Assembly: GCF_023525255.1 (NCBI RefSeq)
Contig: NZ_CP073355.1
Coordinates: 1,426,001-1,490,000, forward strand
Direction of reading: 5' to 3'
Source of the DNA: Thermospira aquatica
GTDB taxonomy: Bacteria > Spirochaetota > Brevinematia > Brevinematales > Thermospiraceae
Length of the DNA: 64,000 nucleotides
Shown piece by piece: positions 15,054-41,712 of the stretch. The notes under the pieces are model-generated. The model was not told the DNA's origin and made no database searches. It saw nothing but the letters and a program-made list of their open reading frames with translations. The number at the start of each line of letters is the position of its first letter. Within the stretch, counting starts at the first letter, position 1. A program made the translations under genes and the position numbers.

Positions 15054-15081
15054 ACGTTGTTCCTCCTTGGGGGAGATGTTT

Positions 15082-18401: not shown

Positions 18402-20213
18402 TTAAAGGTAGTATTCTAAGGTTATTACCTCTTTATCAGCAAGTGTATTGATAATACCCTTTAGAATCTCTTCGTCGCCAATTTTTTCTGGATAACACAG
18501 GGTGTAAAAATCACTTTCAGGTAGGGGTGCTATTCCAATTCCAATCGTCAATATCTCATAGGGGGTGTTCAAAAGTTTGAGAATTTCCCATTCATGTTTC
18601 TCTATGTATGAGAGGTAGCTAATGAAAATAAGCCCGGCATCTGTAAGAATATGTGCAAGTTCTCCTAATCGTCTTATCTCCTCGTACCTTTGGTTTGTTT
18701 CAACAAAACTTAAATCCTGGTCAAGGCCGATGGCTATGGAATTTAAAGAAAGAAAGTACACATTTTTGGAAAGTTCAAAGAGCTTCTTTTCGAGAAGCTT
18801 GGCGATATGTTGGATTTTTTTGCTATTTTGTCCGGTAAGTAACACAAATTTCCCCTGGTGTTGGTTTCTTTTTTCTCTTTTCTCTTTTGATATGTATCCT
18901 TTCTCCCAAAGCTTTTCCCTTTTGGCGATTTCTTCTTCAAGAGAAACAAACTTATCTTCCAATGGTTCGAGGATAATACCGCATCCAGAAATATGGTATT
19001 CGTTAATTATTACAAACCTTGCTGTTTTTTTGAAGTCTTTTCCTGCATCAAATACCACGGGTTTGGTATTTTCGATAACGCAGACACCAATATCGTATCG
19101 TTCCAATTTATCCTTGTTCGTAATATTTTGGGGATCGGTAGAATCAATTACTTTCTGGATATTGGTGATTCTTAAAACCACATTTTGAGTTCCGATTTTT
19201 GCTTGATAGGGTTTATTTACGAGAAGAGGAGCGTTTTCTATCCAGAACACATGGGCAAGAAACCGTTTGGAAACGTAGGGTTCTTTTTCCCCTTCTTTGC
19301 TAAGTAACTCTCCTGGGGAGACGTAGTAAAAATTGTCACTAATGGTGAGTCCAATGCTTTGACCAGCGTACGCTCTCTCGAGAGAATGGGGGAATATTTC
19401 AATGGTTTCAATGTGACTTTTCTTTCCTGATGGGGAAAATACTACTCTGTCTCCTACGTGTATTTCTCCATAATCTATTGTTCCGGCAATAATTCGTCGT
19501 TCATCTTGCCCTTCGGTAAATTTATAGACATCCTGTACAAAGAGGCGAAAATCTTTTTTCGGACTTTCATCTTCAAGTTTCCATTGTTCTATTTCTTCGA
19601 GGAGTGTTCTTCCGGAAAACCAGCGAAGATTCTCCGATCGGTGAACAATGTTTTCGCCGTTTCTCGCGCTGATAGGTATGAAACTCACCTCTGTTATTCC
19701 AACGGAAGAGAGGAACCCTGTGTACTCTTCTTGAAGAGATCGAAAGATTTTTTCTTCGTAATTTACAAGATCCATTTTATTGACGGCAACACATACATTT
19801 GCTATACCTAAGATAGAGAGTAAATAACCGTGTCTTTTAGTGTTTTCTCGGATTCCTTCTTTGGCATCAATGACTATGATAGAAGCATCGGCTCGGGAAG
19901 CTCCTGTTATCATATTTTTTACAAATTCAAAGTGCCCTGGAGCGTCAATGATCAGGTAGTCTCTTTTGTCAGTTTTAAAAAAGCACCGAGCAGCATCAAT
20001 GGTAATTCCTTGAGCCTGTTCTTCTTTAAGGGCGTCAAGTAAAAAAGCATATTCAAAAACTTTTGCATTCTTTTCACAATATGCTTTTATAGCTTCAAGT
20101 TTGCCCTCGGGTAAAGAATTGGTATCTGCAAGGAGTCGTCCGATCAATGTGCTTTTCCCGTGATCTACATGTCCAATGCTCACTATGGTAACTTGTTCTC
20201 TTCTTTTAGTCAT
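18402..20213 (-). CDS. cysN: Sulfate adenylyltransferase GTPase subunit with degenerate APS-kinase domain
   Basis: About 603 residues from ATG 20213, chosen because GGGAGG lies eight bases upstream. Residues 1-430 are Cys[22 protein letters not shown] and NKMD, with an EF-Tu-like second part. With CysD it makes APS from sulfate and ATP, using GTP hydrolysis. Residues 445-603 follow the APS-kinase (CysC) fold ([31 protein letters not shown]), but the P-loop is ruined ([11 protein letters not shown] instead of GxxxxGKS/T), so kinase activity is unlikely. An APS reductase downstream would make the kinase dispensable. Confidence 0.9.
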
Positions 20214-20248
20214 ATACTTTGCCTCCCTTCTTCTCAGGTTTCCGAGCA

Positions 20249-21136
20249 TTACATATAGCCTTCTTTTCGCAGCGTTTCAAGGGTTCCTCCATCTTCTTTA
20301 TCCTGTTCTCTTCCCGCTCTTTCGGCAATTTTTGCAAATTTTCCTTCCTTTAACTCTTGAATAATCTCCTGCACGTTCTTTGCCGATGAGTCCACAGGTT
20401 GTGTACATGGGTAACAGCCGAGAGACCTGTATCGTTTTCCGTTGCCCCTATCAAAGTACAATGGGACAATTTCGATGTTTTCTCGGGCAATGTATTCCCA
20501 GATGTCTAGCTCGGTCCAGTCAAGAAGGGGATGAATTCTTATGTGCGTTTTTGGAGGAAAGCTGGTGTTAAAATAATTCCAGATTTCTGGCGGTTGTTCG
20601 GCAATACTCCACTCACTCTCTTCACCCCGCGGAGAAAAGTATCGTTCTTTGGCTCTACTTCCCTCTTCGTCTGCTCGGATTCCTACGATAACACCTTTGA
20701 AGGGTTCTTTGTTTCCCCATACTTCAAATTGACCTGTTTGATGGTTGAGTTTGTATCTTGGCCATTCGCCTGAAAGGGTATACTTGAGGGCATCGCTTTT
20801 GAGATATTTACAGCAGGTAATTCTATCGACATTTCCATCGGGAAAAGTGAGCTTTTTCTCAAGGATTTCTTTGTTTTCTCCGTAGATGAGATCAAGACCA
20901 AGTTTGAGAGCAAGCTTGTTTCGGTATTCAATCATTTCTGGAATTTTATAATGGGTATCGATATGGAGAAGGGGAAAAGGAATATGACCAAAAAAAGCTT
21001 TTTGGGCCAGGGTAAGGAGGACGGTACTGTCTTTTCCGATTGACCAAAGCATCACGAGATTTTTACTTTTAAATTCTCGATAAGCCTCACGAAGAATGAA
21101 AATGCTCTGTGCCTCGAGTTTTGACAATCTATCCAT
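20249..21136 (-). CDS. cysD: Sulfate adenylyltransferase subunit 2
   Basis: A 295-residue ATP-pyrophosphatase (adenylyl-transfer) subunit of the CysDN ATP sulfurylase. [19 protein letters not shown] carries the PP-loop, and [12 protein letters not shown] and [11 protein letters not shown] are typical. It lies ahead of cysN with a 35-base gap and follows cysK by nine bases; AAGGAGG precedes ATG 21136. Confidence 0.95.
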
Positions 21137-21145
21137 ACTTCCTCC

Positions 21146-22078
21146 TTACACATTATAATATTGGCTAATACTAAAGTATCTTTCACCGGTATCAGGAAGG
21201 ACAGTAACTACTCTTTTCCCTTTTCCCAATCTTTTGGCTACTTGGAGTGCTCCAAAAACGTTGGCTCCTGCCGAAATGCCTGCAAAGATTCCTTCCTCTT
21301 TGGAAAGTCTCAACGAGCTTTTGTACGCATCGTTATCGGAAACTGTTATAATTTCGTCAAGGATTTTTGTATTAAGGATAGAAGGGATAAAACCCGCTCC
21401 TATGCCTGGAATTTTATGAGGTCCTGGTTTTTGACCAGAGAGTACTGCAGAAGAAAAAGGTTCGATGCCAATAACTTTTATCTGAGAGTTCACTTGTTTA
21501 AGAACTTCGCCGACTCCCGTAATGGTCCCTCCTGTTCCAATTCCGGCCACAAAGGCATCCAGATCTCCCCCTGTTGCCTCAAGAATTTCTTGAGCTGTGG
21601 TTTTTCTGTGAATTTCAGGGTTTGCAGGATTATCAAACTGTCGTAGTATCAAAGCATTTTTGATTTTTTTCTGAAGTTCCAGAGCTTTTCTTATGGACCC
21701 TTCCATTCCTTCATACGCAGGAGTGAGAACCACTTCAGCTCCAAAAGACTTGAGGATGTAGATTCTTTCTAGACTCATCGAGTCTGGCATGACGAGAATA
21801 CATTTGTATCCTTTGATAGCAGAGACCATTGCTATCCCTACGCCAGTATTACCGGAAGTTGGCTCAATAATAGTAGCACCTGGCTGGAGAAGGCCTTTTT
21901 TTTCGGCATCTTCAATCATTGAAAAGGCAATTCTATCTTTGATGCTTCCACCCGGGTTGAAAGATTCTACTTTGACGAGTATTTCGGCCATGTTTTCTTC
22001 CACCAGTTTTTTAAGCTTTACCAAAGGGGTGTTGCCAATAAGTTCTAGAATACTCTCATAAATTCTCTGTTTAAACAT
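21146..22078 (-). CDS. cysK: Cysteine synthase (O-acetylserine sulfhydrylase)
   Basis: A 310-residue PLP enzyme making cysteine from O-acetylserine and sulfide. The PLP lysine lies in NPGGSIKDR, the phosphate loop is GTGGTITG and PTSGNTG is present. It provides the classical exit of sulfide from this pathway alongside the thiocarboxylate route. No serine acetyltransferase is encoded in the window. AAGGAGG precedes its ATG. Confidence 0.95.
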   Translation of the reverse strand: MFKQRIYESILELIGNTPLVKLKKLVEENMAEILVKVESFNPGGSIKDRIAFSMIEDAEKKGLLQPGATIIEPTSGNTGVGIAMVSAIKGYKCILVMPDSMSLERIYILKSFGAEVVLTPAYEGMEGSIRKALELQKKIKNALILRQFDNPANPEIHRKTTAQEILEATGGDLDAFVAGIGTGGTITGVGEVLKQVNSQIKVIGIEPFSSAVLSGQKPGPHKIPGIGAGFIPSILNTKILDEIITVSDNDAYKSSLRLSKEEGIFAGISAGANVFGALQVAKRLGKGKRVVTVLPDTGERYFSISQYYNV

Positions 22079-22085
22079 ACGTTTT

Positions 22086-23057
22086 TTATCCTCCTTTTGA
22101 GATTATGTGGATGAGAAAGTGAATGGTATACGTGAGCCCTCCGGTGACCAAGGGAACCAGAAACCATGAAAAGAGTATTTTTTGCACGAGGGCTTTTTTG
22201 CTCGTTGTGATTACTCCATCCTTGATAGCACTTATGGCGAGGATAGAAGAGGTGGTAAACTGGACATAAGGGGTAGGTAATCCCAACCATGAGGCAGCGA
22301 TGACAAAAGTTGAGGTCACAAAGGAAACTATTATCGCAGAAATTTGTCCAAGAGGTATGATATCTTTTGACACGGTTTTGAGTAACCCTGAACCTAAAAG
22401 AAGTCCTCCCAGTCCAAACAGAGGAGAGAAGACGAGGATGAGTCCAACGGGATTTTGAGCACCAGGAAGGAGTAGCAGAGGGGCAACGACATTGGCCACA
22501 TTATTTGTTCCAATAGCAAAAGCACCGTAAGAGTTGGCGGCCAGAATGAAAACATTCATAATGGTGTTATTTGCAAAAATTTTTTCATGTAATCGGAAAT
22601 TTGTCTCTTTTGGGGGGTAAAAAATTTTCATTAAAAAAAAGGTAAAGAAAAAAGCGCCGAGAGAAAAAATGAGAGCGATACCAAAGATTTCAATAATTTT
22701 CCATATATTTACCTTGTGATAAAATAAACCTGCTCCGGCAAAAGCCCCTACGATAACAAAACTTGTGGACTGAGGGAGTTTGAAAAGGTTTGTGATAAAT
22801 AAAGAGAAAGAGGTAGCAAGAATAATGATCAAACCAGAAAGTGGTTCTAATTGTAAGGTGAGTTTAGTATTGAGGGTTTCGACAACCCTTTTCCCTAGCA
22901 AGAGAGCTCCCAGCATAACACAGAATGTGTAGGTGATAACAGCTTTCTTGTGTTTCACAAGATCACATCCATATGATGGGGCAAAAGAGACGGAAAATCC
23001 ACTCGCGCCCATATTTATAGCAAGAAAGATTGAAATTACTATTGTCATTATTACCAT
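22086..23057 (-). CDS. cysP: PiT-family permease, probable sulfate importer
   Basis: A 323-residue, strongly hydrophobic protein with about ten membrane segments. The two PiT signature regions are visible: the N-terminal NMGASGFSVSFAP and the internal GTNNVANVVAP. PiT proteins carry phosphate, but a branch including Bacillus CysP carries sulfate. Position between cysK and the APS-reductase region supports sulfate. AAGGAG lies about 12 bases before ATG 23057, and an internal ATG (23048) is an alternative start. Confidence 0.8.
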   Translation of the reverse strand: MVIMTIVISIFLAINMGASGFSVSFAPSYGCDLVKHKKAVITYTFCVMLGALLLGKRVVETLNTKLTLQLEPLSGLIIILATSFSLFITNLFKLPQSTSFVIVGAFAGAGLFYHKVNIWKIIEIFGIALIFSLGAFFFTFFLMKIFYPPKETNFRLHEKIFANNTIMNVFILAANSYGAFAIGTNNVANVVAPLLLLPGAQNPVGLILVFSPLFGLGGLLLGSGLLKTVSKDIIPLGQISAIIVSFVTSTFVIAASWLGLPTPYVQFTTSSILAISAIKDGVITTSKKALVQKILFSWFLVPLVTGGLTYTIHFLIHIISKGG

Positions 23058-23082
23058 CGATAGCCACTTCTCCTTCTATAAA

Positions 23083-23565
23083 TTATAGATACATCTTTTC
23101 AAGAAGTTTTATACTACACTCTGTCTTAAAAATCTTATCTTTTATATTAAAAATACTTTCTTTTGGTAAACAATCCTCAAAGATATTTACAAGAAAATCT
23201 GCTTCAACAAGAATCTGAAAATCAAGCCCATCAATTTTCTCGTATGTATGATGATGGCCTATAATATAGCATACCCTATCTATTGTTTTTTCAGCTATAA
23301 ATAATTCTTTTAGGATTTTTTTCGCTATCTTTGGGCCTTCTCTCTCTTGATATTTTCCAGCATTTGAATGGTACTTTCTTTCTGCCTCTTTTATACCTAT
23401 GTCATGAAGAAGTCCAGAAAAATGAACCACTTCTTTTTGACTAAAGTCTTGTAGTTCATTTTCAGCTATGAGGTATGCAAAAGAATAAACTTTTAAGGCA
23501 TGGTTTATCCTTTTAACATCATTCCCAAAGTATGCTATCATTTTCTCCATAACTTTGATTTCCAT
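23083..23565 (-). CDS. HD-domain phosphohydrolase-like protein
   Basis: A 160-residue protein with the metal-binding HD pattern: HALKVYSFA near residue 22, HFSGLLHDIG near residue 48 and IIGHHHTYEK near residue 100. Such small HD proteins often hydrolyse nucleotides. Within a sulfate operon it could act on adenosine 3',5'-bisphosphate or another nucleotide by-product, but that is only inference. It lies 14 bases after cysH and 25 bases before cysP. Confidence 0.75.
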   Translation of the reverse strand: MEIKVMEKMIAYFGNDVKRINHALKVYSFAYLIAENELQDFSQKEVVHFSGLLHDIGIKEAERKYHSNAGKYQEREGPKIAKKILKELFIAEKTIDRVCYIIGHHHTYEKIDGLDFQILVEADFLVNIFEDCLPKESIFNIKDKIFKTECSIKLLEKMYL

Positions 23566-23579
23566 ATTATTTTATCCTC

Positions 23580-24293
23580 CTACCTTCTATGTAAGCCACA
23601 TTCTTTATGTTCAGGGTTTTCCCACCACCATCTTCCACTCCGTATATCTTCTCCTTCTTTTATGGCTCTTGTACACGGCATACATCCGATACTCGGATAC
23701 CCTTGGTCATGGAGTTTATTGTAGGGGATTTTGTGTTCCTTAATAAACTGCCATACCTTTTCTGTTGTCCAATTATAAAGAGGATTAAGTTTATATAATC
23801 CATTTACTTCATCCCACTCAATGGGCTGGATATTCTCTCTGGTGAGAGATTGTTCTCTACGAAGACCACATATCCAGCATTTTACTCCTCGTAACGCTCG
23901 CCTTAATGGTTCAACTTTTCTGACATGGCAACAAAGTTTTCTATTTTCAATGCTGTTATAAAAGAGATTGATTCCTTTTTCATTGACCATCTTTTCCACC
24001 TGCCGATAATCAGGGAAATATATTTCGTATTTAAAATCATAGCGGTTTTCTGTTTTTTCTATTGTAAAGTAGACTTCTTGAAACATTCGTCCCGTGTCAA
24101 TGGTAAATATTCGAACATTTTTATCTATTGACATAATCATATGAGTGATAACCTGATCTTCTACTCCAATACTCGAAGCAAAGGCTATTCTTGTTTTCCC
24201 GAAGGTTTGGATTCCCCATCGCAAAATATCAAAGGCATCCAGATTTTGAAGATGGGCGTTCCACTTTTCTATGTTTTTTTTCTTTTTCCACAT
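23580..24293 (-). CDS. cysH: Adenylyl-sulfate (APS) reductase, 4Fe-4S type
   Basis: A 237-residue enzyme reducing APS to sulfite. The cluster cysteines are present as the CC pair at 121-122 (KLCCHVRKVEPLRRAL) and the CxxC at 204-207 (SIGCMPCTRA). The C-terminal catalytic Cys232 lies in KECGLH. The CC/CxxC set and WWWENPEHK mark the APS-specific, not PAPS-specific, class. This agrees with the inactive-looking APS-kinase domain on CysN. AAGGAG precedes ATG 24293. Confidence 0.93.
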   Translation of the reverse strand: MWKKKKNIEKWNAHLQNLDAFDILRWGIQTFGKTRIAFASSIGVEDQVITHMIMSIDKNVRIFTIDTGRMFQEVYFTIEKTENRYDFKYEIYFPDYRQVEKMVNEKGINLFYNSIENRKLCCHVRKVEPLRRALRGVKCWICGLRREQSLTRENIQPIEWDEVNGLYKLNPLYNWTTEKVWQFIKEHKIPYNKLHDQGYPSIGCMPCTRAIKEGEDIRSGRWWWENPEHKECGLHRR

Positions 24294-24309: not shown

Positions 24310-26682
24310 TTATTTTTTTCGGATAAGGACAGAATAGTACTGCCCTTCTCGTTTTTCTACAGAAACAATTTCATGACCTTCTTCTTTTACAGAACCAGGG
24401 ACGTTTTGAATAGGCTCTCCTTCGTCAAGATATATTTCCAAAATTTCTCCTGCTTTCATAAGGGAGAGTTCAAGTTTGGTTTTCACAAAGTTCATGGGGC
24501 AGGCAACTCCTCGGAGATCTTTTATTCGTTTTCTTTCTTTCTTTTCCTCTTTTGTTTCTGTTAGTATTTTCTCTTGCATTTGGGAGGAAGATATTTTGTT
24601 CTTGGATTCAATATGAAACTGGAAATTACTATCCATGGCATCATAAAGCTTTTTTACTTTTTCGGATAACTCAATGATTTCATTTTTTAACTGGATTACC
24701 TCGCTTTTATCTTCCGTTAAAATGATGTTAAGAAAATTTTTAAATTTTTCGTCAATGTAGCCGCTTTCTATGAAGTGGGTAATAAAGGCTTTTACTATAT
24801 CTTTGAAATTTTCAGCCTCTACTCCTCGGGTAATCAAAAGCATTCTGCTTGAATAGTAGGCCAATTCTTTTATGAAAAGGACAAGCTCTTCTTTATTTTC
24901 TGTTGTCTCAACTTTTTCTCTAAATTCTCTTATTTTTTCCAGATCTTTTTCTATGAAGTCAAAGAATCCGGCAGAGCATTCTCCGGTAGATCGTTCTACC
25001 AGGCTGAAGAGAGTATCACTTCCCCAATCGAAGTAGTAGTTTTTATCTTCTCTGAAGGAGGGGACAGTGTAGCGGTGAAGGAGATTTTTTATAGTTTCTT
25101 TATTGTTCTCAAAAAAGTGTGTAAAATTTTCGTGGTTGTCAAGATTTCTTGAATATATTTCCAATAAGGAAGCCAGAAAATGGGGAAGATCTCTTGCACT
25201 TATTTCTCCTACTTTTTGGGCAAAATAAAGTCCTTCGGGAGTATTTCTATGGCCTGCGAGCACATAATAGGCAGGGTAAAGCTTGTCATCCTTTCTTGCT
25301 GCAAAACCATAAAAACCTATATCGCCAAGCCAATGTTGTCCGCATGCATTTGGACATCCTGAGATTCTGATAATGGGAAATTGAGTGTCCTTAATCTTCT
25401 CTTTAAAATTTTCTAATCTTGAAAGGACTTCTTTTGCTAGTTCTCTAGATAAGCAGAGCCCAAGTTTACATGTATCTGCTCCAGCACATACTGTGGTGTG
25501 GGTGGTAAAATAAGGTATCGTGGAAAAATTCTCTTTATAGAAGAGGTAAAATTGAGGGAGGGCATCTTGAGGTATATTTCTTACTAAAATATCCTGCATG
25601 GTGGTAAGTCTGATTACATTTTCCCCATAGTTTGACAGAAAATTCGCTGTTTTCTCGAAAAGATCCGAATCAATGTCTCCTAACAGAAGCGGATATTTGA
25701 TGGCATAAAGATCCTTCTGTTTTTGAGGGAAAACAAACCTCTCTTTCCATTTTTCAAAGTCCTTTTTTTCTTGTGGTTGCAATGATTTTGATTGTATAGG
25801 GATATTTTCTGCTTTGTTTTCAATCTCCACTGGCTTTATGATGAAATTGTCGTCTTTTTTTACTTCTTCATAATAAGAATCAAAAAGAGTTTTAAATTTT
25901 TCGCCACCAATTTCCTCCCATAAAAATCTTAAACGCGCCTTGTGTCTGTTTTTTCTATTTCCATGATGGAAAAAGAGTCTTTTGATAGCTTCTGCCACAT
26001 AGCCAACTTCTTCAGCCAAGATAAAATCGAGAAATTTTTTTGCAGGAGCCGATTTTGCACCCATTCCACCAGCGGTATATACCTCAAATCCCTTAGCGCC
26101 TTCTTTTTGTTTTGCGATGAAACCAACATCGGCAATTTTTGCATAGCCGTTGTCTGCTTCATATGAAGAAAAATTTATCTTAAATTTTCTCGGAAGGTTC
26201 CAACTGTTATCATGTCGGATCATTATCTCGGTTAAGCTTATAGCATACGGAGTCACATCAAAAACTTCTTTTTCATTTATGCCAGAATCAGCGGGAGCCA
26301 CAATGTTTCTCACCGTGTTGCCACCACCCCCTCTTGTAGAAAGCCCTGCAGCATAAAGTTCTCTGAGAATTTCTGGAACTTTTGAAATATCTTCTATGGA
26401 GTGGATCTGGATTTCTTGTCGCGTGGTAATATGAACTCTTCCACTTCCATATTTTTTAGCTACTTTTGCGATTATTTTCATCTGGGATGGTGTGATCAAA
26501 CCTGCAGGACAACGAACACGTATCATGTAGGTGTCACTTATTCTTTGTTCGTATATCCCGAAGGCAACTCTTTTAGCGCGGAACTTCACGGGATCAATTT
26601 CTTCTCTTGTCTTTTTTTGTATAAAAGTTTCAAGCTCCTCAATCTCAGTAACAAGCTTTTCTGGAATGCGATAACCAACCAT
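24310..26682 (-). CDS. Siroheme sulfite reductase fused to a TusA-like domain
   Basis: A 790-residue protein. The nitrite/sulfite reductase core has tandem ferredoxin-like and catalytic halves, with RGGGGNTVRN near residue 116 and siroheme/4Fe-4S ligands Cys399, Cys405, Cys443 and Cys447 (CAGADTC, SGCPNAC). Residues 500-700 are mainly helical and unassigned. Residues 720-790 are a TusA domain (DLRGVACPMNFVKTKLELS, Cys728). It should reduce sulfite to sulfide, and the TusA tail may accept or pass on the sulfur. The electron donor is probably ferredoxin, since no flavin domain is present. AAGGAGG precedes ATG 26682. Confidence 0.9.
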   Translation of the reverse strand: MVGYRIPEKLVTEIEELETFIQKKTREEIDPVKFRAKRVAFGIYEQRISDTYMIRVRCPAGLITPSQMKIIAKVAKKYGSGRVHITTRQEIQIHSIEDISKVPEILRELYAAGLSTRGGGGNTVRNIVAPADSGINEKEVFDVTPYAISLTEIMIRHDNSWNLPRKFKINFSSYEADNGYAKIADVGFIAKQKEGAKGFEVYTAGGMGAKSAPAKKFLDFILAEEVGYVAEAIKRLFFHHGNRKNRHKARLRFLWEEIGGEKFKTLFDSYYEEVKKDDNFIIKPVEIENKAENIPIQSKSLQPQEKKDFEKWKERFVFPQKQKDLYAIKYPLLLGDIDSDLFEKTANFLSNYGENVIRLTTMQDILVRNIPQDALPQFYLFYKENFSTIPYFTTHTTVCAGADTCKLGLCLSRELAKEVLSRLENFKEKIKDTQFPIIRISGCPNACGQHWLGDIGFYGFAARKDDKLYPAYYVLAGHRNTPEGLYFAQKVGEISARDLPHFLASLLEIYSRNLDNHENFTHFFENNKETIKNLLHRYTVPSFREDKNYYFDWGSDTLFSLVERSTGECSAGFFDFIEKDLEKIREFREKVETTENKEELVLFIKELAYYSSRMLLITRGVEAENFKDIVKAFITHFIESGYIDEKFKNFLNIILTEDKSEVIQLKNEIIELSEKVKKLYDAMDSNFQFHIESKNKISSSQMQEKILTETKEEKKERKRIKDLRGVACPMNFVKTKLELSLMKAGEILEIYLDEGEPIQNVPGSVKEEGHEIVSVEKREGQYYSVLIRKK

Positions 26683-26696
26683 ACCGTTCTCCTCCT

Positions 26697-27914
26697 TTAG
26701 ATAAGTTTATACTTTTCCTCTTTTGGAGTTTCCTCTTCTAGCCGGAAAATCTTAAAAATGGGTTTTCTCGTGGAAAGAGAGACGATCGCGTACAATAAAC
26801 TTTTATCATACGCAAGTTTTCTATCTTCTTCTGACATTCTTGCTGGTGTAGAAGGGTGACTATGATATACCCCTATGATTTTTAAACCCATATTTCTTAC
26901 CTTTTTGTGAACATCAAATTGTTCTTTTGGATCAAAAGAAAAATGTTCAGAACTTTTATCGATATTTGTCATTTCAAAAACTTCTGTTATAGTATTTTCT
27001 TTTCCGGCCATATAGCCGCAAGCCTCCAGTGGGAGATCTCTTCTTGCATGTTGTATGATTTTATTATAAACGTCTTTACTCAAAAATAAGATATTTTCCT
27101 TGTTCTTGCTCTTGAAAAACCAGTAACCAAATAGGGAGAATACTATAGTATAGTGGAGGATAAACTGTAACCATTCTGGTTTTGAGTACCAGCCGAGGAG
27201 GATATTGAGAGGTAGGCCAAATAGTCCCTGCTTATGGTCAAGAATTGTACTGGAAAGGTCAAAAACCTTTATCAAAAGGGGATGGTGTTTATCAATGAGA
27301 TGAAGAGTTTTTAAAGAGGCAAGCATTTCGTGAACTCCATAGCCTGCCAGATAACCTGCTTGAATGATGAGGTAAACGAGTGTTATGGCCAATATTGTTT
27401 CAATTTTTACTTTCATGATTGAGAAATAGACGGCAACAGAGAGAAAGAGCGCCAGAAGGATCCCGATAAAGATAGATAACCAGTGATACTGACCGGCAAA
27501 AGAAAATAACACAATTTCCACTCCCTCTCTTGCCACAAGGAAAAAGGAGACAAGGAAAATTCCTCCAGGTGAAAGGTGTAAGGAAGCCTTATTCTCCACA
27601 TACTTTTTTATCTCGCTTCCATGGTTAATCATCCACCGGATGAATGAGATGATCAGACTTACGGCAACGAGGCTCGCGAGGCTTTCCCAGAACTTTCCGA
27701 ATTCATCAATTCTCTTAACTTGCAGATTTATAATAAATAGGAAGAACCCGAGAAACAGTGAGAAAAGAATACTGGAAACAAACCCATAGATTACTTCGCG
27801 AGTTAAGTGTTTATTGTTGGTTTTTTCCAAAAATCTAAAAATTAAAATCAGTATCAAAAAGGCTTCCAAGCCTTCTCGGAAAGAAACTATAATTCCTGAA
27901 AATAAATTTTGCAT
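26697..27914 (-). CDS. FTR1-type iron permease fused to a JAMM (Mov34/MPN) protease domain
   Basis: A 405-residue protein from ATG 27914 (AAGGAGG upstream). The N-terminal two-thirds is a seven-helix FTR1 permease with both iron-binding motifs, REGLEA (13-18) and REGVEI (129-134). The last 125 residues form a cytoplasmic JAMM metalloprotease: Glu297, then His351, His353, Ser361 and Asp364 in the exact HxH-x7-S-x2-D pattern. JAMM proteases such as Mec and HcyD process C-termini of sulfur-carrier proteins. With a ThiS-like carrier ending in GGGK in the same operon, trimming that tail is a likely role. Linking it to an iron permease is unusual. Confidence 0.87.
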   Translation of the reverse strand: MQNLFSGIIVSFREGLEAFLILILIFRFLEKTNNKHLTREVIYGFVSSILFSLFLGFFLFIINLQVKRIDEFGKFWESLASLVAVSLIISFIRWMINHGSEIKKYVENKASLHLSPGGIFLVSFFLVAREGVEIVLFSFAGQYHWLSIFIGILLALFLSVAVYFSIMKVKIETILAITLVYLIIQAGYLAGYGVHEMLASLKTLHLIDKHHPLLIKVFDLSSTILDHKQGLFGLPLNILLGWYSKPEWLQFILHYTIVFSLFGYWFFKSKNKENILFLSKDVYNKIIQHARRDLPLEACGYMAGKENTITEVFEMTNIDKSSEHFSFDPKEQFDVHKKVRNMGLKIIGVYHSHPSTPARMSEEDRKLAYDKSLLYAIVSLSTRKPIFKIFRLEEETPKEEKYKLI

Positions 27915-27953: not shown

Positions 27954-28577
27954 TTAACAACTACAAGCATCTTTTTCCCTCACAATGTGATACCCTTCTC
28001 TGAATAAGAAGAGGGAGACCAATAACGCTAAAAACGGATCCAGTTGCCATATCCCCCACAGATAATTAGTCCCTAATCCAATCAAGATAATTGCTGACAG
28101 GAATATACAGGCGAGGGTTTCTTTTGAGTCTCCTATTAAACTTTTGCTTTGAAGCAACTTCCCTGTTTTATATTTCTGGTAATATAAAATTGGCATGATA
28201 AGAAGGGAAAGAATAAGTATGGTAAGACCTCCTGCTGTTGGCTGGGGGATTTCTTTAAAAACTAATTTTTTTATCACATCAACCAGAACATAAGCTCCAA
28301 AGATAAAGAATGTCCAGCCAACAAGGGTTATAGCCTGTTTTTCTTTTTTTTCATTTTCTTCAGCACTCATGTTGTGTGACCCATAGAATCTCCATAATAT
28401 GACAAATCCCGATAATGATTCAGCAAAGCTATCAAGCCCAAAACTTACTAAAGCCACACTTTTTGCAATATTTCCAAAAAGAATCGACAAAACACCTTCA
28501 AGAAGATTGTAGATTACCGTAAACAGAGCAAGCCCAAAAGCCTTTCTCTTTAACTTTTGAAGAGAATCAATTGACAC
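27954..28577 (-). CDS. Cation-efflux (CDF-like) membrane protein
   Basis: A 207-residue protein with about six membrane helices, starting at GTG 28577 behind AAGGAGG. The second helix carries ALVSFGLDSFAESLSG and a later helix SKSLIGDSKETLACIFLSA, matching the metal-site helices of cation diffusion facilitators. The C-terminal cytoplasmic domain is missing and replaced by a short tail ending in DACSC. Metal unknown; iron, zinc or manganese are possible. It lies between tusA and the FTR1-JAMM gene, so a metal-homeostasis role for the iron-rich reductases is plausible. Confidence 0.72.
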   Translation of the reverse strand: MSIDSLQKLKRKAFGLALFTVIYNLLEGVLSILFGNIAKSVALVSFGLDSFAESLSGFVILWRFYGSHNMSAEENEKKEKQAITLVGWTFFIFGAYVLVDVIKKLVFKEIPQPTAGGLTILILSLLIMPILYYQKYKTGKLLQSKSLIGDSKETLACIFLSAIILIGLGTNYLWGIWQLDPFLALLVSLFLFREGYHIVREKDACSC

Positions 28578-28588
28578 TGGTATCCTCC

Positions 28589-28810
28589 TTATTTTTCGAT
28601 GGTGACTTTAAAGATACCCTGTCCCATATCTTCGATGGAAATAACCCTGTACCCCTGCTCTTCACACGAGCGAGGGACGTTGTCCAAAGGTTCGCCTTGA
28701 GTAAGGAGAACCTCAAGTCTATCACCCTTCTCTAGTTTTGAAAGGGCAAGTTTTGTTTTTACAAATGTCATGGGACAATGTTCCTTTGTTATATCGAGTA
28801 CAGTGTTCAT
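28589..28810 (-). CDS. TusA-family sulfur-relay protein
   Basis: A 73-residue stand-alone TusA-like protein with the sulfur-carrying cysteine in EHCPMTFVKTKLALSKL (Cys12). It closely resembles the C-terminal domain of the sulfite reductase in the same operon, sharing CPM, FVKTKL, GEP and NVP. TusA proteins carry persulfide sulfur. It follows the DsrE-like gene by 14 bases, as TusA and DsrE genes often pair. GGGAGG precedes ATG 28810. Confidence 0.87.
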   Translation of the reverse strand: MNTVLDITKEHCPMTFVKTKLALSKLEKGDRLEVLLTQGEPLDNVPRSCEEQGYRVISIEDMGQGIFKVTIEK

Positions 28811-28824
28811 GTTTTCCTCCCATT

Positions 28825-29307
28825 TTAGCTTATAAATAAAATTTCTCCACCCTTTGCAATTTCCAGAAACTTAGCCACACCAAGTACTTCTTTTATCTGT
28901 GGTATAAAATCAGCCAACTTTATTCCGAGTATTATCATCGACATTTCGCAGGCATAAAAATTTACCCCAAGTTCTATAGAAGCATTTATTAATTCTTCAA
29001 GGGTGGCAACGTTTCTATTCTTCATCAAGTAGGTCATCAGTTTTGGGGAAACCCCTCCAAAGTTGAGCCTGCTTAAGGGTAAATTTTTTCTTCCCCCCAT
29101 TAGAAAATTAAACATTTTTGCAAGAATTCCTTTACCAATTGGACTTCTCACTTTTTTTTTCTTTATTATATTAAAACCCCAAAATGTAAAAAATAGGTTC
29201 ACTTCATACCCTACAGCGGCGGCTCCACTGGCTATCGTAAATATCGCGATAGCTTTATCGAAATCCCCACTAAAGCAAACTATAGAAATCTTCTTTTGAT
29301 TTTCCAT
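28825..29307 (-). CDS. DsrE/DsrF-like sulfur-relay protein
   Basis: A 160-residue protein of the DsrE2-like group: an N-terminal beta-alpha unit with FTIASGAAAVGYEVNLFFTFWG and a later cysteine in NFYACEMSM. The family passes persulfide sulfur and usually partners with TusA, whose gene is next. Between ThiF-like and TusA genes it probably supplies or accepts sulfur for the carrier protein. AAGGAG precedes ATG 29307. Confidence 0.8.
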   Translation of the reverse strand: MENQKKISIVCFSGDFDKAIAIFTIASGAAAVGYEVNLFFTFWGFNIIKKKKVRSPIGKGILAKMFNFLMGGRKNLPLSRLNFGGVSPKLMTYLMKNRNVATLEELINASIELGVNFYACEMSMIILGIKLADFIPQIKEVLGVAKFLEIAKGGEILFIS

Positions 29308-29310
29308 ATC

Positions 29311-30129
29311 TTACTCCTTTTTGGCGATATCACAAACCACATCTGCTTCATCAAAAAGTTCGGTGATGGTGGGCTTTTCCCCACAGAGGCGACATTTTTT
29401 TTGTTTCGAGAGTTTAATCTTTCGAAAGAGAAATGTCTTAGCATCAAAGGTAAGAAGTGTATTGGTAAGCAGCTCACCGAAACCTATGATGAATTTGAGA
29501 GCCTCTGTAGCTTGAATGGTTCCCAGGATACCTGCAACACTTCCAAGAATTCCTGCTTGAGAGCAGGTAGGGACAGCATTTGGAGGGGGAGGGGCATCAA
29601 AAATACAGCGGTAACATGCGGATTCTCCCGGAAGAATGGTCATCGTTTGCCCAAGAAATCTCAGTATTCCTCCGTGAGAAAGGGGTTTTTTTTCGAAGTA
29701 ACAGGCATCATTAATCAGAAATTTTGACCTGAAGTTGTCTGTCCCATCAATAACAAAATCGTACTTTCTTATTATTTCTCGAATGTTTTCAGAGGTCAAG
29801 AGGACATTGTAGGTTTCTACTTCTACAGTAGGATTTAAAGCGAGAATTTTTTCTTTTGCTGATAACGTTTTAGGTTTTCCTATATCGGGAGTAAAATGAA
29901 TGATCTGCCTTTGAAGGTTTGTAAGATCAACTTTATCAAAATCCACGATGCCAAGTCTCCCCACTCCTGCCGCGGCAAGGTAAAGAAGAATAGGTGAACC
30001 TAAACCTCCGGCTCCGATGACAAGGATGCTCGCTTCTCGTATTTTTTGTTGTCCTTCTATCCCTACTTCTTGCAAAAGGATATTTCTACTGTATCGTTCG
30101 AGAAAACTCTCGTCAAAATTTATATTCAT
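29311..30129 (-). CDS. MoeB/ThiF-like carrier-activating enzyme
   Basis: A 272-residue E1-like adenylyltransferase. The nucleotide-binding loop is VIGAGGLGSP (residues 37-46), followed by VDLTNLQRQIIH and DGTDNFRSK. Zinc cysteines occur as CYRC and CRLC, and a further cysteine lies in PTCSQAG. Such enzymes adenylate the C-terminal glycine of ThiS/MoaD-type carriers so that it can be sulfurated to a thiocarboxylate. There is no rhodanese domain. It overlaps the metY-like gene by four bases. Confidence 0.88.
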   Translation of the reverse strand: MNINFDESFLERYSRNILLQEVGIEGQQKIREASILVIGAGGLGSPILLYLAAAGVGRLGIVDFDKVDLTNLQRQIIHFTPDIGKPKTLSAKEKILALNPTVEVETYNVLLTSENIREIIRKYDFVIDGTDNFRSKFLINDACYFEKKPLSHGGILRFLGQTMTILPGESACYRCIFDAPPPPNAVPTCSQAGILGSVAGILGTIQATEALKFIIGFGELLTNTLLTFDAKTFLFRKIKLSKQKKCRLCGEKPTITELFDEADVVCDIAKKE

Positions 30130-31355
30130 ATAACCTCCAATGCCTGGATTATGTCTTCATAGATATCTTCTACATCTTCGATTCCTACGGCTATACGCAC
30201 CATCTCTTCACTTACCCCGAGTTCTTTTCTTTTTTGGGGAGGGTATTCACAGAAAATAGTAGAGGCTGGATGGATGATAAGGGTTTTATTATCATGAAGG
30301 TTGGTGGCTTTTCGTATAAGTTTGAGATTGTCTATAAACGTGAAACATGCTTCTTTACTTGGGAGCTCGAGTGTGAAAAGAGAACCATACCATCCTTTGA
30401 GATATTTTTTCGCATTTTTAAAGTAGCGACTATCCTCCAACCCAGGGTAGTTTACATTTTTGATTTTTGGGTGACCAATGAGTCTTTGGGCTAAAATCAA
30501 TGCGTTCGAGCAGCTTTTTTCAACCCTCAGAGGAAGTGTCTCCATTCCCAAAAGCTGGAGGTAAGCGTTGTGAGGAGAAAGGCAAACCCCTGTGTTACGA
30601 TGAACTTCACGTTTCAACCTTACCAGGAGAGCATTTTTGCCGTATTTTTGGGCTTCATCCGAGAGAAACCTATTGTAAGAGTAGTCGTAATTTCCGTAGT
30701 CGAGAATAGCCCCTCCGATGGTAGTAGCGCCGCCTGAAATATACTTGGTAGTAGAAATAACCTCAATGTTGATACCCCATTCTCTGGAAGAAAAGAGGTA
30801 AAAGGTGGCCAGGGTATTATCCAGAAGGGTAAGAAGACGATATCGTGAAGCAATATTAACGATACTCTCGATATCAAAAATAGCGAGTTGAGGGTTGGTA
30901 ATGGTTTCGAGATAGATTGCCACCGTATTTTCATCAATTGCTTTTTCGATTTGCTCTGGGTTATGAAAGTCAATATATTTTACGCTAAGTCCAAATCTTT
31001 TAAGGGTTTTTTCAAAAAGAGAGTAGGTGTTTCCAAAAAGATAGGGTGAAGAAAGAATGTTTGCTTCTTTACCACTTATGGAAAGAAGGACAGCAGTAAT
31101 GGCCGCCATTCCTGAAGAGGTGGACACTACTCCATACGCGTCGGATACTGTGGCAAGTCTTCTCTCAAATTCGGATACCGTAGGATTGGAAATCCGGGAA
31201 TACGAATGAGCAAGTGTTCTACCGAGAAAGGCATTTTCTATATCTTTGGCAGAGTTGAATTCAAAGGCCACACTGTCATAAATAGGAAATTTCAAGCTTC
31301 CATGAGGATCAGGGTTAGGAAAATCCCCGTGAATAATCTTTGTAGAAATTCTCAT
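30126..31355 (-). CDS. Cys/Met-metabolism PLP enzyme, MetY-like
   Basis: A 409-residue PLP enzyme of the O-acetylhomoserine sulfhydrylase / cystathionine-gamma-synthase family. The PLP lysine is Lys204 in STTKYISGGAT, with SYSRISNPTV and ETITNPQL typical. In this operon it directly follows the carrier gene and overlaps the activating-enzyme gene, so it probably uses carrier thiocarboxylate or sulfide to make homocysteine from an activated homoserine. Cystathionine-type activity cannot be excluded from sequence alone. Confidence 0.85.
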   Translation of the reverse strand: MRISTKIIHGDFPNPDPHGSLKFPIYDSVAFEFNSAKDIENAFLGRTLAHSYSRISNPTVSEFERRLATVSDAYGVVSTSSGMAAITAVLLSISGKEANILSSPYLFGNTYSLFEKTLKRFGLSVKYIDFHNPEQIEKAIDENTVAIYLETITNPQLAIFDIESIVNIASRYRLLTLLDNTLATFYLFSSREWGINIEVISTTKYISGGATTIGGAILDYGNYDYSYNRFLSDEAQKYGKNALLVRLKREVHRNTGVCLSPHNAYLQLLGMETLPLRVEKSCSNALILAQRLIGHPKIKNVNYPGLEDSRYFKNAKKYLKGWYGSLFTLELPSKEACFTFIDNLKLIRKATNLHDNKTLIIHPASTIFCEYPPQKRKELGVSEEMVRIAVGIEDVEDIYEDIIQALEVI

Positions 31356-31565
31356 TTACTTTCCTCCACCAATGAAATATAAAAATTCCACTTCGTCTCC
31401 TTCTTTCAAAGAAGTAGTGGAATAGTTGACTTTGTCAACGAATTGTCCATTGAGTTGCACACTTACTACGTCAGGATTTTTTACTTTTTCAATTTCAAGT
31501 AATTCAGTAATGTTGAGGCTTTTGTTAGCGTATTCTTTTTTTTCTCCATTGATCACAAGATGCAT
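31356..31565 (-). CDS. ThiS/MoaD-like sulfur carrier with C-terminal GGGK
   Basis: A 69-residue beta-grasp carrier. It starts at ATG 31565, six bases after AAGGAGG. An upstream in-frame start would put the promoter and operator inside the gene. The protein ends EFLYFIGGGK: a glycine tail followed by a single lysine, so the di-glycine is not terminal. Carriers with such extensions need proteolytic trimming before adenylation. A JAMM protease, an activating enzyme and a MetY-like enzyme are encoded downstream. It is the first gene of the main sulfur operon. Confidence 0.87.
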   Translation of the reverse strand: MHLVINGEKKEYANKSLNITELLEIEKVKNPDVVSVQLNGQFVDKVNYSTTSLKEGDEVEFLYFIGGGK

Positions 31566-31581
31566 AGTATACCTCCTTAAT

Positions 31582-31612
31582 ATTCTATAATTTCTATAGA
31601 TTTTATAGGAAT
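31582..31612 (-). promoter_or_regulatory. Operator-like palindrome of the sulfur operon
   Basis: An inverted repeat ATTTCTATA-N5-TATAGGAAT (31590-31612), preceded by an extra half-site ATTCTATA (31582-31589), placed just downstream of the predicted transcription start. The same arrangement recurs at 35390-35420. The position suggests a repressor. The half-site is reminiscent of Rrf2/CymR-type cysteine-regulator sites, but that link is inference; no regulator gene is in the window. Confidence 0.6.
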
Positions 31613-31623
31613 TATATATGTTT

Positions 31624-31652
31624 ATTATAAGCGAACTTTTTTCTTTTGTCAA
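31624..31652 (-). promoter_or_regulatory. Promoter of the main sulfur/siroheme operon
   Basis: Minus strand TTGACA (31647-31652), 17-base spacer, TATAAT (31624-31629): a perfect sigma-70 consensus. It would drive the carrier gene and probably the co-directional block down to hemL at 12854, because gaps between genes are 0-41 bases and no terminator was seen. Confidence 0.8.
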
Positions 31653-31680: not shown

Positions 31681-34362
31681 TCAAAGCTTTACCCAAACAT
31701 ACTCATCAACTTTCACCTCATAAACCTTTAACTTACCAATACCTTCATTTGAACATTCTCCCGTTTTCATATCAAAAGAGTAAAGATGGATGGGGCAGGT
31801 TATTTTCCCATTTCCTATTATTGCCTCTTCTATGGGTCCTTTTTCATGGGGACATATTGCTGAGGTTACAAAAATGTCTCCACTTCTATCTTTAAAGACA
31901 ACAATTTTTTCATCATTGATGGTAAAGGTGAGTCTATCAGGAGTTTTTAGTTTTCTTGTTTCGATTAATTGAACGTAATTACTTCCTTCTTTTCTTTCCC
32001 TGATTTCTGGAATTTCTTCTGGTTGCGTTTCTTGCCATGGATCTTTATAATTAGCAAGTGTCTCTTTGATACTTTTTTGTAATTCTTTTCTTATCGAAAC
32101 GTTTTCGATTACATCCTCTTTTATTTTTTCAAGGCCGATTCTTTCCACAAAGTAGCTCGTTCTTTCAAGGTAATTTGCATTTTTTCTATAATATTCAATG
32201 AATGCATCACAAAAATCAAAAACCTCTTCTTCCGTCTTAACAGTTGTAATTTTCTTACCTACAAATACTTTTGCTCCCCCATTACCTCCGACGTAAATAT
32301 CCCAGCCACCTTCTATAGCAACTATGCCAATATCTTTTATGGTTGCTTCAGCACAGTTTCTCGGGCAGCCACTTACTCCCATTTTGAGTTTTGCTGGATT
32401 CATTAAACCAGAGTATCTTTCGGCAATCTTTTTACCGAGTGAAATCGAATCGTTAAGCCCATATCTACAGAAATCACTTCCTACACAAGTTTTACATGCT
32501 CTAAAAGTCTTTGTAAATGCATGACCACAAGGCATATTCAGTTCATCCCAGACTTTTTTTAAATCTTTTTTCTTAATTGTGTATAATCCAATTCTATCCG
32601 ATCCTGTAATTTTTATAATAGCATTATACTTTTCTGCCACTTGAGCAATCCTTTTTAATTCTTCTGGCTTTATGACTCCTCCAAAGACAGCGGGAATTAC
32701 ACTGTATGTTCCCTCTTTTTGTATATTTCCATAATATCTATCATTTGGATGTCTTGCATCATTCTCTATTTCATAGTCACCCTTCCAGATATAGTTTAAC
32801 AAGAAATCAAGTCCCATCTGGGTCTTCGCATCATTTTTGGAACCTTCGATAGAATTTAAAACTTTACTTACCGATTTCAAATTGTTTTTTACAATATACT
32901 CTGTAAGCTCTTCTCTTGTCATAGGAATTCCCGGCACAAAGTATTTTTCAGCTGGATCTTCTCTTAACTCTCCAACTACGGAAACAAGAAGAGCTTTAAT
33001 CTTATTCTTACAATTTCCACAACCCGTTCCAGCACGTGTAGCATTCATTACTTTATAAAGAGTATCATTTCCATTCCTTATAGCTTCTCTAATTTTACCC
33101 GCAGATACACCATTACAATCACATATTTGGAGACTTTCTGGCCAACTTTCAGCCTCCATTATCATCTCTGAAGCCCTACTACCTGGGAATAGTATATCTG
33201 CTCTATTTGTCGGAAGTGGCATTTTTGTACTATAATATATAGAAATAGCATCAATATTTAAATCATCACCTACAAAGTTAGCACCGATAAGTTTATTCTC
33301 CCGTATAATCAGTTTCTTAAAGATTAAATTATGCTCATCAACATAATAAACAACTTCATCGCCATTTTCTTCAGAAAATTTTCCCATACTTATAACCGGA
33401 ATATCAGATTTTAACCTGGTTGGTGGCAATGGCGAAGGATGATATTTTAAATTATCATCTCGAGTAGCAAGATAACTTGCTAAAAGTCTTGCATGTTCAT
33501 AAACCTGAGAAACAAGGCCAAAAGTCTTCCCTGCAAACTCTATACATTCTCCTATCGCAAAGATGTCTGGATCATTGGTTCTTAAATGTTCATCTACTAA
33601 AATACCCTTGTTATAGTTGAGGTTGCATTTTTTCGCAAGATCAAGATTGGGTTTTATTCCGCAGCTAAAGAGTACAAGATCAACTTTAAACCTCTGTCCG
33701 TCCTTAAAAATTGCCTCTTCAATTCCGGCAGTAGACCCTAAAAATTCCACTACATAATTGGAAGTTACAAACTTGATTCCTTTTTGTTCTAATTTTTTCT
33801 GTAAAAATATGCCAGCTTGTTCATAGAGTTGCATTTCCATTATGGTTGGAGTAAGATGCGAGATGATAACATTTTTTCCAAGCTGTCTTATAACAAGAGC
33901 TAGCTCTAAACCAAGAAGCCCCCCTCCTACAACCATAACGAAAGATTTTCCTTTAAGCATCTCTTTTAATTTATATACATCATCAAGTGTTCGCATCGCA
34001 AAAATCCCGGGCAAATCAAGTCCTTTCACAGGTGGAATAAAGGGGTATGAGCCTGTGGCCAGGACAAGTATATCGTATGGAATATTTTCCCCATACGATG
34101 TGGTGACAACTTTTTTCTTTCTATCAATATCAACTACCTCAGTATTGAGTAAAAGATTGATGTTTCTTTCCTCATACCATTCGAGAGAATTTAAGAAAAA
34201 ATTATCGGGGACTTCATCTTTTAAAAGATAAATAAGTTTTGTTCTATCGTAGGTTGGTTCTTTTTCTTTGCTTATCACAGTAATTTTGAATTTTTTAATA
34301 TCCAATTCCTCACAAAGCTTTGCAGAAGCCATACCTCCGCCAATAATTACAACCCTTTCCAT
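31681..34362 (-). CDS. nirB: NirB-like siroheme reductase with BFD and Rieske domains
   Basis: An 893-residue protein. FAD/NAD(P)-binding oxidoreductase at 1-400 (VVIIGGGMASAK, VGGGLLGLELA); BFD-like [2Fe-2S] domain with Cys414, Cys416, Cys448 and Cys451; siroheme/4Fe-4S core with Cys626, Cys632, Cys666 and Cys670; C-terminal Rieske domain with Cys837, His839, Cys856 and His859. It corresponds to NirB plus NirD in one chain, with Rieske ligands intact. The usual reaction is NAD(P)H reduction of nitrite to ammonia. In this sulfur-controlled context sulfite is an alternative substrate. Its start is preceded by AGGAGG. Confidence 0.88.
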   Translation of the reverse strand: MERVVIIGGGMASAKLCEELDIKKFKITVISKEKEPTYDRTKLIYLLKDEVPDNFFLNSLEWYEERNINLLLNTEVVDIDRKKKVVTTSYGENIPYDILVLATGSYPFIPPVKGLDLPGIFAMRTLDDVYKLKEMLKGKSFVMVVGGGLLGLELALVIRQLGKNVIISHLTPTIMEMQLYEQAGIFLQKKLEQKGIKFVTSNYVVEFLGSTAGIEEAIFKDGQRFKVDLVLFSCGIKPNLDLAKKCNLNYNKGILVDEHLRTNDPDIFAIGECIEFAGKTFGLVSQVYEHARLLASYLATRDDNLKYHPSPLPPTRLKSDIPVISMGKFSEENGDEVVYYVDEHNLIFKKLIIRENKLIGANFVGDDLNIDAISIYYSTKMPLPTNRADILFPGSRASEMIMEAESWPESLQICDCNGVSAGKIREAIRNGNDTLYKVMNATRAGTGCGNCKNKIKALLVSVVGELREDPAEKYFVPGIPMTREELTEYIVKNNLKSVSKVLNSIEGSKNDAKTQMGLDFLLNYIWKGDYEIENDARHPNDRYYGNIQKEGTYSVIPAVFGGVIKPEELKRIAQVAEKYNAIIKITGSDRIGLYTIKKKDLKKVWDELNMPCGHAFTKTFRACKTCVGSDFCRYGLNDSISLGKKIAERYSGLMNPAKLKMGVSGCPRNCAEATIKDIGIVAIEGGWDIYVGGNGGAKVFVGKKITTVKTEEEVFDFCDAFIEYYRKNANYLERTSYFVERIGLEKIKEDVIENVSIRKELQKSIKETLANYKDPWQETQPEEIPEIRERKEGSNYVQLIETRKLKTPDRLTFTINDEKIVVFKDRSGDIFVTSAICPHEKGPIEEAIIGNGKITCPIHLYSFDMKTGECSNEGIGKLKVYEVKVDEYVWVKL

Positions 34363-34372
34363 AAACTTCCTC

Positions 34373-35128
34373 CTAGTTTTTTCTCAGTGAGATTAAATAA
34401 TAAGAAAAAGCCAAAATAACGCCAGCGATAGTATTACCAATGGTTACCCAGAGGAGATTGTAGAAAAATCCTCCCCAGCTCAAACTCTTTTGAAAAACAC
34501 CCATGCCCAACAGACTCATGTTTGCGATTGAATGTTCAAAACCAGAACCTATAAATCCAAAGAGGCACCAAAAGATCAAAAAGATTTTTGCACTATCTTC
34601 TTTTGTTCTCCCACTCATCCATATTGCAAGACAAACAAGTAAATTACACAAAAAACCCCTTATTAAAAGGGGTAGAATTGGCAAACTCCCTTTGGCAAGA
34701 GAAACCTTTTCAAGGAGTAGATCAAAGCTATTGAGAGAACCTGAAACATAAACAAGATAGGCAATAAAGAGACTCCCTATGAGATTGCCAATATAAGAAA
34801 CTATCCACACAAGGATAAGGTCTAAAAATTTTACATTTCTATTCACAACCCCAAAAGTCATAATCATTGTATTGCCAGTATAAAGTTCAGAACCTGCAAA
34901 TATTACGAGGGTGAGGGCAATTCCAAAAGAAATACCCATTATAAATTTTAAAAAAGGACTATTCTCCAAAAAAAGTTGTCCGCCGATTGAAAGAATGAGA
35001 ACTATACCAAATCCTACATATAAACCGGCAAGCATAGAGGAGATAAGATACCCTAAAAAATTTTTCTTTAATAGCTCTACCTTCTTTTTTGAAAGATCTG
35101 AAAAGAAATTTACATTTTCAAAGTACAT
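34373..35128 (-). CDS. FNT-family anion channel (NirC/FocA-like)
   Basis: A 251-residue membrane protein with six helices. FNT features are visible: the first-helix region YLISSMLAGLYVGFG, ELYTGNTM near residue 87, and paired pore segments including WMSGRTKEDSAKI. FNT channels pass nitrite, formate or hydrosulfide. The nirB-like gene starts ten bases downstream, suggesting nitrite; control by a sulfur-operon operator would also fit a hydrosulfide channel. GGGGGAG precedes ATG 35128. Confidence 0.85.
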   Translation of the reverse strand: MYFENVNFFSDLSKKKVELLKKNFLGYLISSMLAGLYVGFGIVLILSIGGQLFLENSPFLKFIMGISFGIALTLVIFAGSELYTGNTMIMTFGVVNRNVKFLDLILVWIVSYIGNLIGSLFIAYLVYVSGSLNSFDLLLEKVSLAKGSLPILPLLIRGFLCNLLVCLAIWMSGRTKEDSAKIFLIFWCLFGFIGSGFEHSIANMSLLGMGVFQKSLSWGGFFYNLLWVTIGNTIAGVILAFSYYLISLRKN

Positions 35129-38193: not shown

Positions 38194-38228
38194 AAAAGTG
38201 TAATAAAATGAGAGGGGTAGAAAAATCT

Positions 38229-41703: not shown

Positions 41704-41712
41704 GAGGAAATT

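Follow-up and report, generated by a model that had tools for sequence, protein, structure and literature searches.

An FTR1-family permease fused to a predicted HcyD-type JAMM protease in a putative nitrite and sulfate assimilation cluster of Thermospira aquatica

The fusion gene and its operon

The window, a 64,000-nucleotide stretch of Thermospira aquatica DNA, contains on its minus strand a gene (26697–27914) whose one uninterrupted frame encodes a 405-aa protein, an FTR1 permease followed by a JAMM domain. The ribosome-binding site of the gene is strong (AAAGGAGGAATACCATG), and the downstream gene begins 14 nt past its end. In Pfam searches, PF03239 (FTR1) covers residues 5–257 (E 9.6e-23) and PF14464 (Prok-JAB) covers residues 280–380 (E 1.3e-23). 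Both FTR1 motifs are exact, REGLE at residue 13 and REGVE at residue 129, as is the JAMM motif, HSH(x7)S(x2)D at residues 351–364 with Glu297 upstream; the JAMM catalytic set (E297, H351, H353, S361 and D364) is complete. The original prediction, that both FTR1 motifs and an HxH-x7-S-x2-D motif with an upstream Glu occur in one frame, is confirmed, and the domain matches and motifs are far beyond chance. The junction, which had been suspected near residues 265–285, is located at residues 272–275, and the frame is uninterrupted there. The gene is divided as follows:

26697–27914, minus strand: FTR1–JAMM fusion protein, 405 aa; single ORF, sole copy of either domain in the complete genome (one FTR1 and one JAMM, both in this protein)
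27099–27914, minus strand: FTR1 permease part, residues 1–272 (Pfam, hydropathy, AF2 helices); stand-alone relatives end at about residues 270–282
27090–27098, minus strand: junction, residues 273–275 (GAA AAT ATC); FTR1 relatives end about here and JAMM relatives begin with a Met at residue 275
26697–27092, minus strand: JAMM part, predicted HcyD type, residues 275–405 (Pfam, PDB 2kks, alignment)

The gene lies in a run of sixteen genes on the minus strand, from 35128 down to 18402, with good ribosome sites and nearly all gaps shorter than 40 nt. The order is FNT, NirB–Rieske, ThiS-like, MetY, ThiF, DsrE2, TusA, CDF and FTR1–JAMM, followed by sulfite reductase–TusA, CysH, an HD protein, a PiT-type permease, CysK/M, CysD and CysN–CysC; past a 460-nt gap come HemA, a HemC–SUMT–HemD fusion, HemB and HemL. 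The neighbours were assigned as follows:

31681–35128, minus strand: NirB–Rieske nitrite reductase and FNT nitrite/formate channel (Pfam, NCBIfam)
31356–31562, minus strand: ThiS/HcyS-like carrier ending in FIGGGK (Pfam ThiS); the start at about 31562 is inferred from the ribosome-binding site AAGGAGG and lies inside a longer TTG ORF, 31356–31652
30126–31355, minus strand: MetY-like O-acetylhomoserine sulfhydrylase (Pfam, NCBIfam)
29311–30129, minus strand: ThiF/E1-like adenylyltransferase, no rhodanese domain (Pfam, NCBIfam)
28825–29307, minus strand: DsrE2-like sulfur carrier (Pfam, NCBIfam)
28589–28810, minus strand: TusA (Pfam)
27954–28577, minus strand: short CDF-type cation transporter (Pfam), inserted together with FTR1 relative to the operon of related genomes
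24310–26682, minus strand: siroheme/4Fe-4S sulfite reductase fused to TusA (Pfam, NCBIfam)
23580–24293, minus strand: PAPS/APS reductase (CysH)
18402–23057, minus strand: PiT-type permease, CysK/M, CysD and CysN–CysC (synteny)
12854–17941, minus strand: HemA, HemC–SUMT–HemD fusion, HemB and HemL (siroheme/tetrapyrrole supply)

By its gene content, the run is assigned to the assimilation of nitrite and sulfate, with siroheme supplied through the Hem genes; genes for siroheme synthesis and for siroheme/4Fe-4S reductases surround the fusion gene. The operon type has been described (Iyer et al. 2006, table 1, row 4e; PMC1779556), and the ThiS-like carrier, E1-like protein, MetY, sulfite reductase and SirA/TusA of that row are all found here. 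The operon also matches in type the protein-thiocarboxylate methionine pathway of Wolinella, which is credited to Krishnamoorthy and Begley (2011) in PMC5764234 and PMC6271081. A plasmid search with the operon DNA gave no match.

Several other proteins are encoded in the window. In the protein encoded at 31681–34362 (minus strand), the NirB large subunit ends in a Rieske (NirD-like) domain at its C-terminus; the gene at 15082–17031 (minus strand) unites HemC, uroporphyrinogen methyltransferase and HemD in 649 aa, beside HemA, HemB and HemL. At 22086–23565 (minus strand), the sulfate operon also encodes a permease of the PiT family, which perhaps imports sulfate, and a small protein with an HD domain. 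A comparison with 67 loci at E 1e-3 gave no relative of the 207-aa CDF protein (27954–28577, minus strand). A type III restriction–modification system occupies 38208–44337 on the plus strand (Mod 38208–40154, Res 41713–44337), and between Mod and Res, at 40144–41703, lies a gene for a 519-aa protein with no Pfam match.

The permease and protease domains

The FTR1 part has seven predicted transmembrane helices (hydropathy, AF2 helices), with REGLE in predicted helix 1 and REGVE in predicted helix 4. Its PF03239 score, 81.3 bits, passes the curated cut-off of 25.3, and its NCBIfam scores fail the cut-offs of the EfeU equivalog (103 of 255 bits) and the Ftr1 subfamily (82.3 of 303.8 bits). On sequence grounds it is classed as a divergent member of the FTR1 family and not EfeU proper; a sequence search found no solved relative of this part. 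With FTR1/EfeU permeases (PF03239) it shares the seven helices and the two REGxE motifs; unlike them, it carries a C-terminal JAMM domain and scores below the NCBIfam EfeU cut-off, and EfeO and EfeB genes are absent among its operon neighbours. Iron is taken as the putative cargo from the motifs and family membership. The N-terminus of the FTR1 part is uncharged and its tail positively charged, which by the positive-inside rule suggests an N-out/C-in topology with the JAMM domain in the cytoplasm. This predicted topology agrees with the earlier suggestion that the protease is anchored at the membrane, setting it on the cytoplasmic side.

Relatives of the FTR1 part occur in informative neighbourhoods. 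One (locus L045) is encoded directly 5′ of a multicopper oxidase gene, an arrangement that resembles the yeast Fet3/Ftr1 pair. In a Clostridiales locus (L024, 561–5458), the FTR1 relative is followed by MetY, homoserine O-succinyltransferase, CysK and two Rrf2 regulators, and in L094 it adjoins CysK/M. The Clostridiales locus is read as tying the subfamily to the synthesis of sulfur amino acids independently of the window.

The JAMM part has every catalytic residue in common with 14 stand-alone relatives, and its end branch in the tree (0.47, median 0.41) is not unusually long. The part matches PDB 2kks, an NMR structure from Desulfitobacterium, by sequence (phmmer, E 4e-29) and by model (Foldseek, TMt 0.83, 40% identity); the JAMM fold is confirmed by a Foldseek probability of 1.00 to both 2kks and 5ld9. 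The model also matches P. furiosus JAMM1, solved with SAMP2, and the NCBIfam haloarchaeal desampylase family is matched at E 1.2e-21, under the family cut-off. For the protein as a whole, confidence in the model is moderate (mean pLDDT 84, pTM 0.69), with the JAMM blocks mostly at 82–96.

The names HcyS, HcyF and HcyD, and a carrier trimming step, belong to the Wolinella methionine pathway; Mec is the CysO-cysteine peptidase of Mycobacterium, which frees cysteine from its carrier. HcyD/QbsD-type proteases, including structure 2kks, share with the fusion the JAMM motif, the operon partners and a carrier extending past Gly-Gly; the stand-alone members seen are small and have no membrane helices, whereas here the domain is fused to a permease. 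Mec is likewise of the JAMM class and works together with a ThiS-like carrier, but the present operon has MetY and the carriers are tailed, fitting trimming better than cysteine release. The carrier of this operon ends in FIGGGK, and carriers extend past MGGG with variable residues in 13 of the 14 JAMM-bearing loci, the one in L099 ending at GGG. Carriers with such tails are what a trimming protease would be expected to act on, and the carrier at 31356–31562 is the probable substrate of the JAMM domain. The assignment to the HcyD kind rather than Mec is supported, with carrier cleavage predicted. A tie of the protease to a sulfur carrier had been proposed at the outset and accords with the operon, which holds the GGGK carrier, the E1-like protein, MetY and sulfite reductase–TusA.

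Origin and rarity of the fusion

Three genomes of the same taxonomic order (L085–L087) have the gene order ThiS, MetY, ThiF, DsrE2, TusA, JAMM, sulfite reductase–TusA, CysH, CysD and CysNC, and other spirochaetes have close variants of it. In the three, JAMM is a separate gene in the operon slot held here by the fusion; the window follows this arrangement with two insertions, the CDF gene and FTR1, which separate JAMM from TusA. A stand-alone FTR1 from the same phylum (genome G182, locus L002) is 60% identical to the FTR1 part over 270 columns. It ends right after YWFRKNK, and the fusion reads YWFFKSKNK-EN-ILFLSKD. The start Met of stand-alone JAMM proteins aligns exactly to Ile275 of the fusion (codon ATC), leaving no linker, and AAGGA stands four bases upstream of that codon, the old JAMM start position. 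The trees place the FTR1 part with the G182 protein (support 98/92). For the JAMM part, the shortest path leads to the genomes of the same taxonomic order, a placement that lacks strong support; the combined FTR1 and JAMM alignment was built with a reduced set of FTR1 rows. Two genomes of the same genus are without FTR1, JAMM and the ThiF of this operon, giving only distant ThiF/MoeB-type matches. The genes are joined without a linker, which is most simply explained by loss of the FTR1 stop and the JAMM start; the event was most likely a recent one between operon neighbours.

Searches with the full protein covered 393 genomes from the same phylum and, in four further phyla, 398, 345, 380 and 371 genomes. 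They also took in the genomes behind 13 loci of a first scan, and 49 loci with FTR1 relatives were scanned. No other FTR1–JAMM fusion was found in these approximately 1,970 genomes of five phyla, a sample in which matches weaker than the E-value limits would escape; the two matches never fell in one frame. The architecture is also absent from the literature searched, where FTR1 and JAMM are mentioned together only in a yeast review. The fusion is real and, as far as searched, undescribed; the original prediction likewise named no described protein of this architecture. Two kinds of candidate were rejected. Outside JAMM, the long frames of L125–L133 resemble none of the proteins of the window, and what precedes JAMM in them looks like open frame ahead of the true start, not like a domain. 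The 442-aa frame with FTR1 in L042 contains masked bases and no JAMM motif.

Predicted role of the fusion protein

The preferred reading, which we hold to be fairly probable, is that of a bifunctional inner-membrane protein, a recent fusion of operon neighbours in which a working HcyD-type protease is tethered to a working permease. The FTR1 domain would import iron, a plausible use being in the siroheme and 4Fe-4S enzymes of the surrounding genes, and the JAMM domain would hang on the cytoplasmic side of the inner membrane as the zinc protease of the operon. There it would remove the residue or residues after the Gly-Gly of the ThiS-like carrier; ThiF would then adenylate the trimmed carrier, which would bring sulfide from sulfite reductase to MetY. 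Transport, enzymatic activity, membrane side and cleavage are predicted from sequence and models, and the tether would only co-express and localise the protease. As the genome has a single JAMM copy, the fusion, or a product of its gene, should trim the carrier if the pathway works. Should the full-length protein be the working form, carrier maturation would occur at the inner membrane.

A neutral read-through ranks next after this tethered working protease, although it is unlikely. The adjacent genes would have lost their stop and start, and JAMM would still be freed by proteolysis or started separately from TTG278 behind AAGGA, the tether having no role. The zero-length linker, with the junction falling at the end of stand-alone FTR1 and the start of JAMM, is what such an event would leave, as is the AAGGA remnant, and the fusion is confined to one genome among those searched; the possible start at the internal TTG (residue 278) was counted against the preferred reading, as were the NCBIfam scores below cut-off, the lack of a solved FTR1 relative in the sequence search and the moderate confidence of the model. 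However, the stretch from FTR1 to the catalytic Glu has neither ATG nor GTG in frame; of the common start codons, TTG278 alone is usable, and it is 12–13 nt from AAGGA. A sequencing or assembly error joining two genes is far less credible. It would take one substitution, in codon 272 or 273, to split off FTR1, and the fusion is unique within the searches. JAMM, however, would require a second change, as its start position reads ATC in place of ATG, and the need for two independent base changes makes an error unlikely. The contig is a single 2,515,453-base sequence, 99.8% complete, and the frame around the fusion is open over 418 codons; an assembly join is very unlikely because both flanks are operon genes in the order of the relatives.

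It is doubtful, too, that the JAMM domain acts in a desampylase-like or Mec-like way, taking the carrier off proteins or releasing cysteine instead of trimming a tail. The haloarchaeal desampylase match, below its cut-off, and the structural likeness to P. furiosus JAMM1 point in that direction, but the carriers of such operons bear extra C-terminal residues needing removal. Slightly less probable still is a selected coupling, in which iron passage or binding at FTR1 alters JAMM activity and carrier maturation is gated by iron flux at the membrane; such gating would link sulfur assimilation to iron import within one protein. The iron-demanding siroheme reductases and siroheme genes share the cluster with the fusion, and the FTR1 subfamily is found near sulfur amino acid genes in L024 and L094. 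Against this, the fusion is not conserved, the operon elsewhere runs with a free JAMM, and there is no sign of communication between the two domains. Selected coupling is not required, given a fusion in one genome, a free JAMM elsewhere and the linkerless look of a read-through, and iron–sulfur coupling through the fusion, as put forward in the original prediction, is a possible but unsupported speculation. As no relative has the fusion, selection for it cannot be inferred.

The domain pairing, found in no paper and no other searched genome, belongs to an operon with products that require iron as well as sulfide. JAMM and sulfite reductase occur in one frame in four further loci, so JAMM has been fused to an operon neighbour more than once, and the operon type offers a natural test of whether fusion of JAMM to a neighbour (FTR1 or sulfite reductase) channels sulfur carriers. 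As in the window, JAMM is in frame with a neighbouring gene of its own operon; in contrast, the partner is soluble, JAMM is N-terminal and several genomes are involved. The fusion of L092 (7938–10640) has 915 aa and includes TusA, and those of L097 (8387–9787), L123 and L124 have an asrC/dsr-like sulfite reductase as partner.
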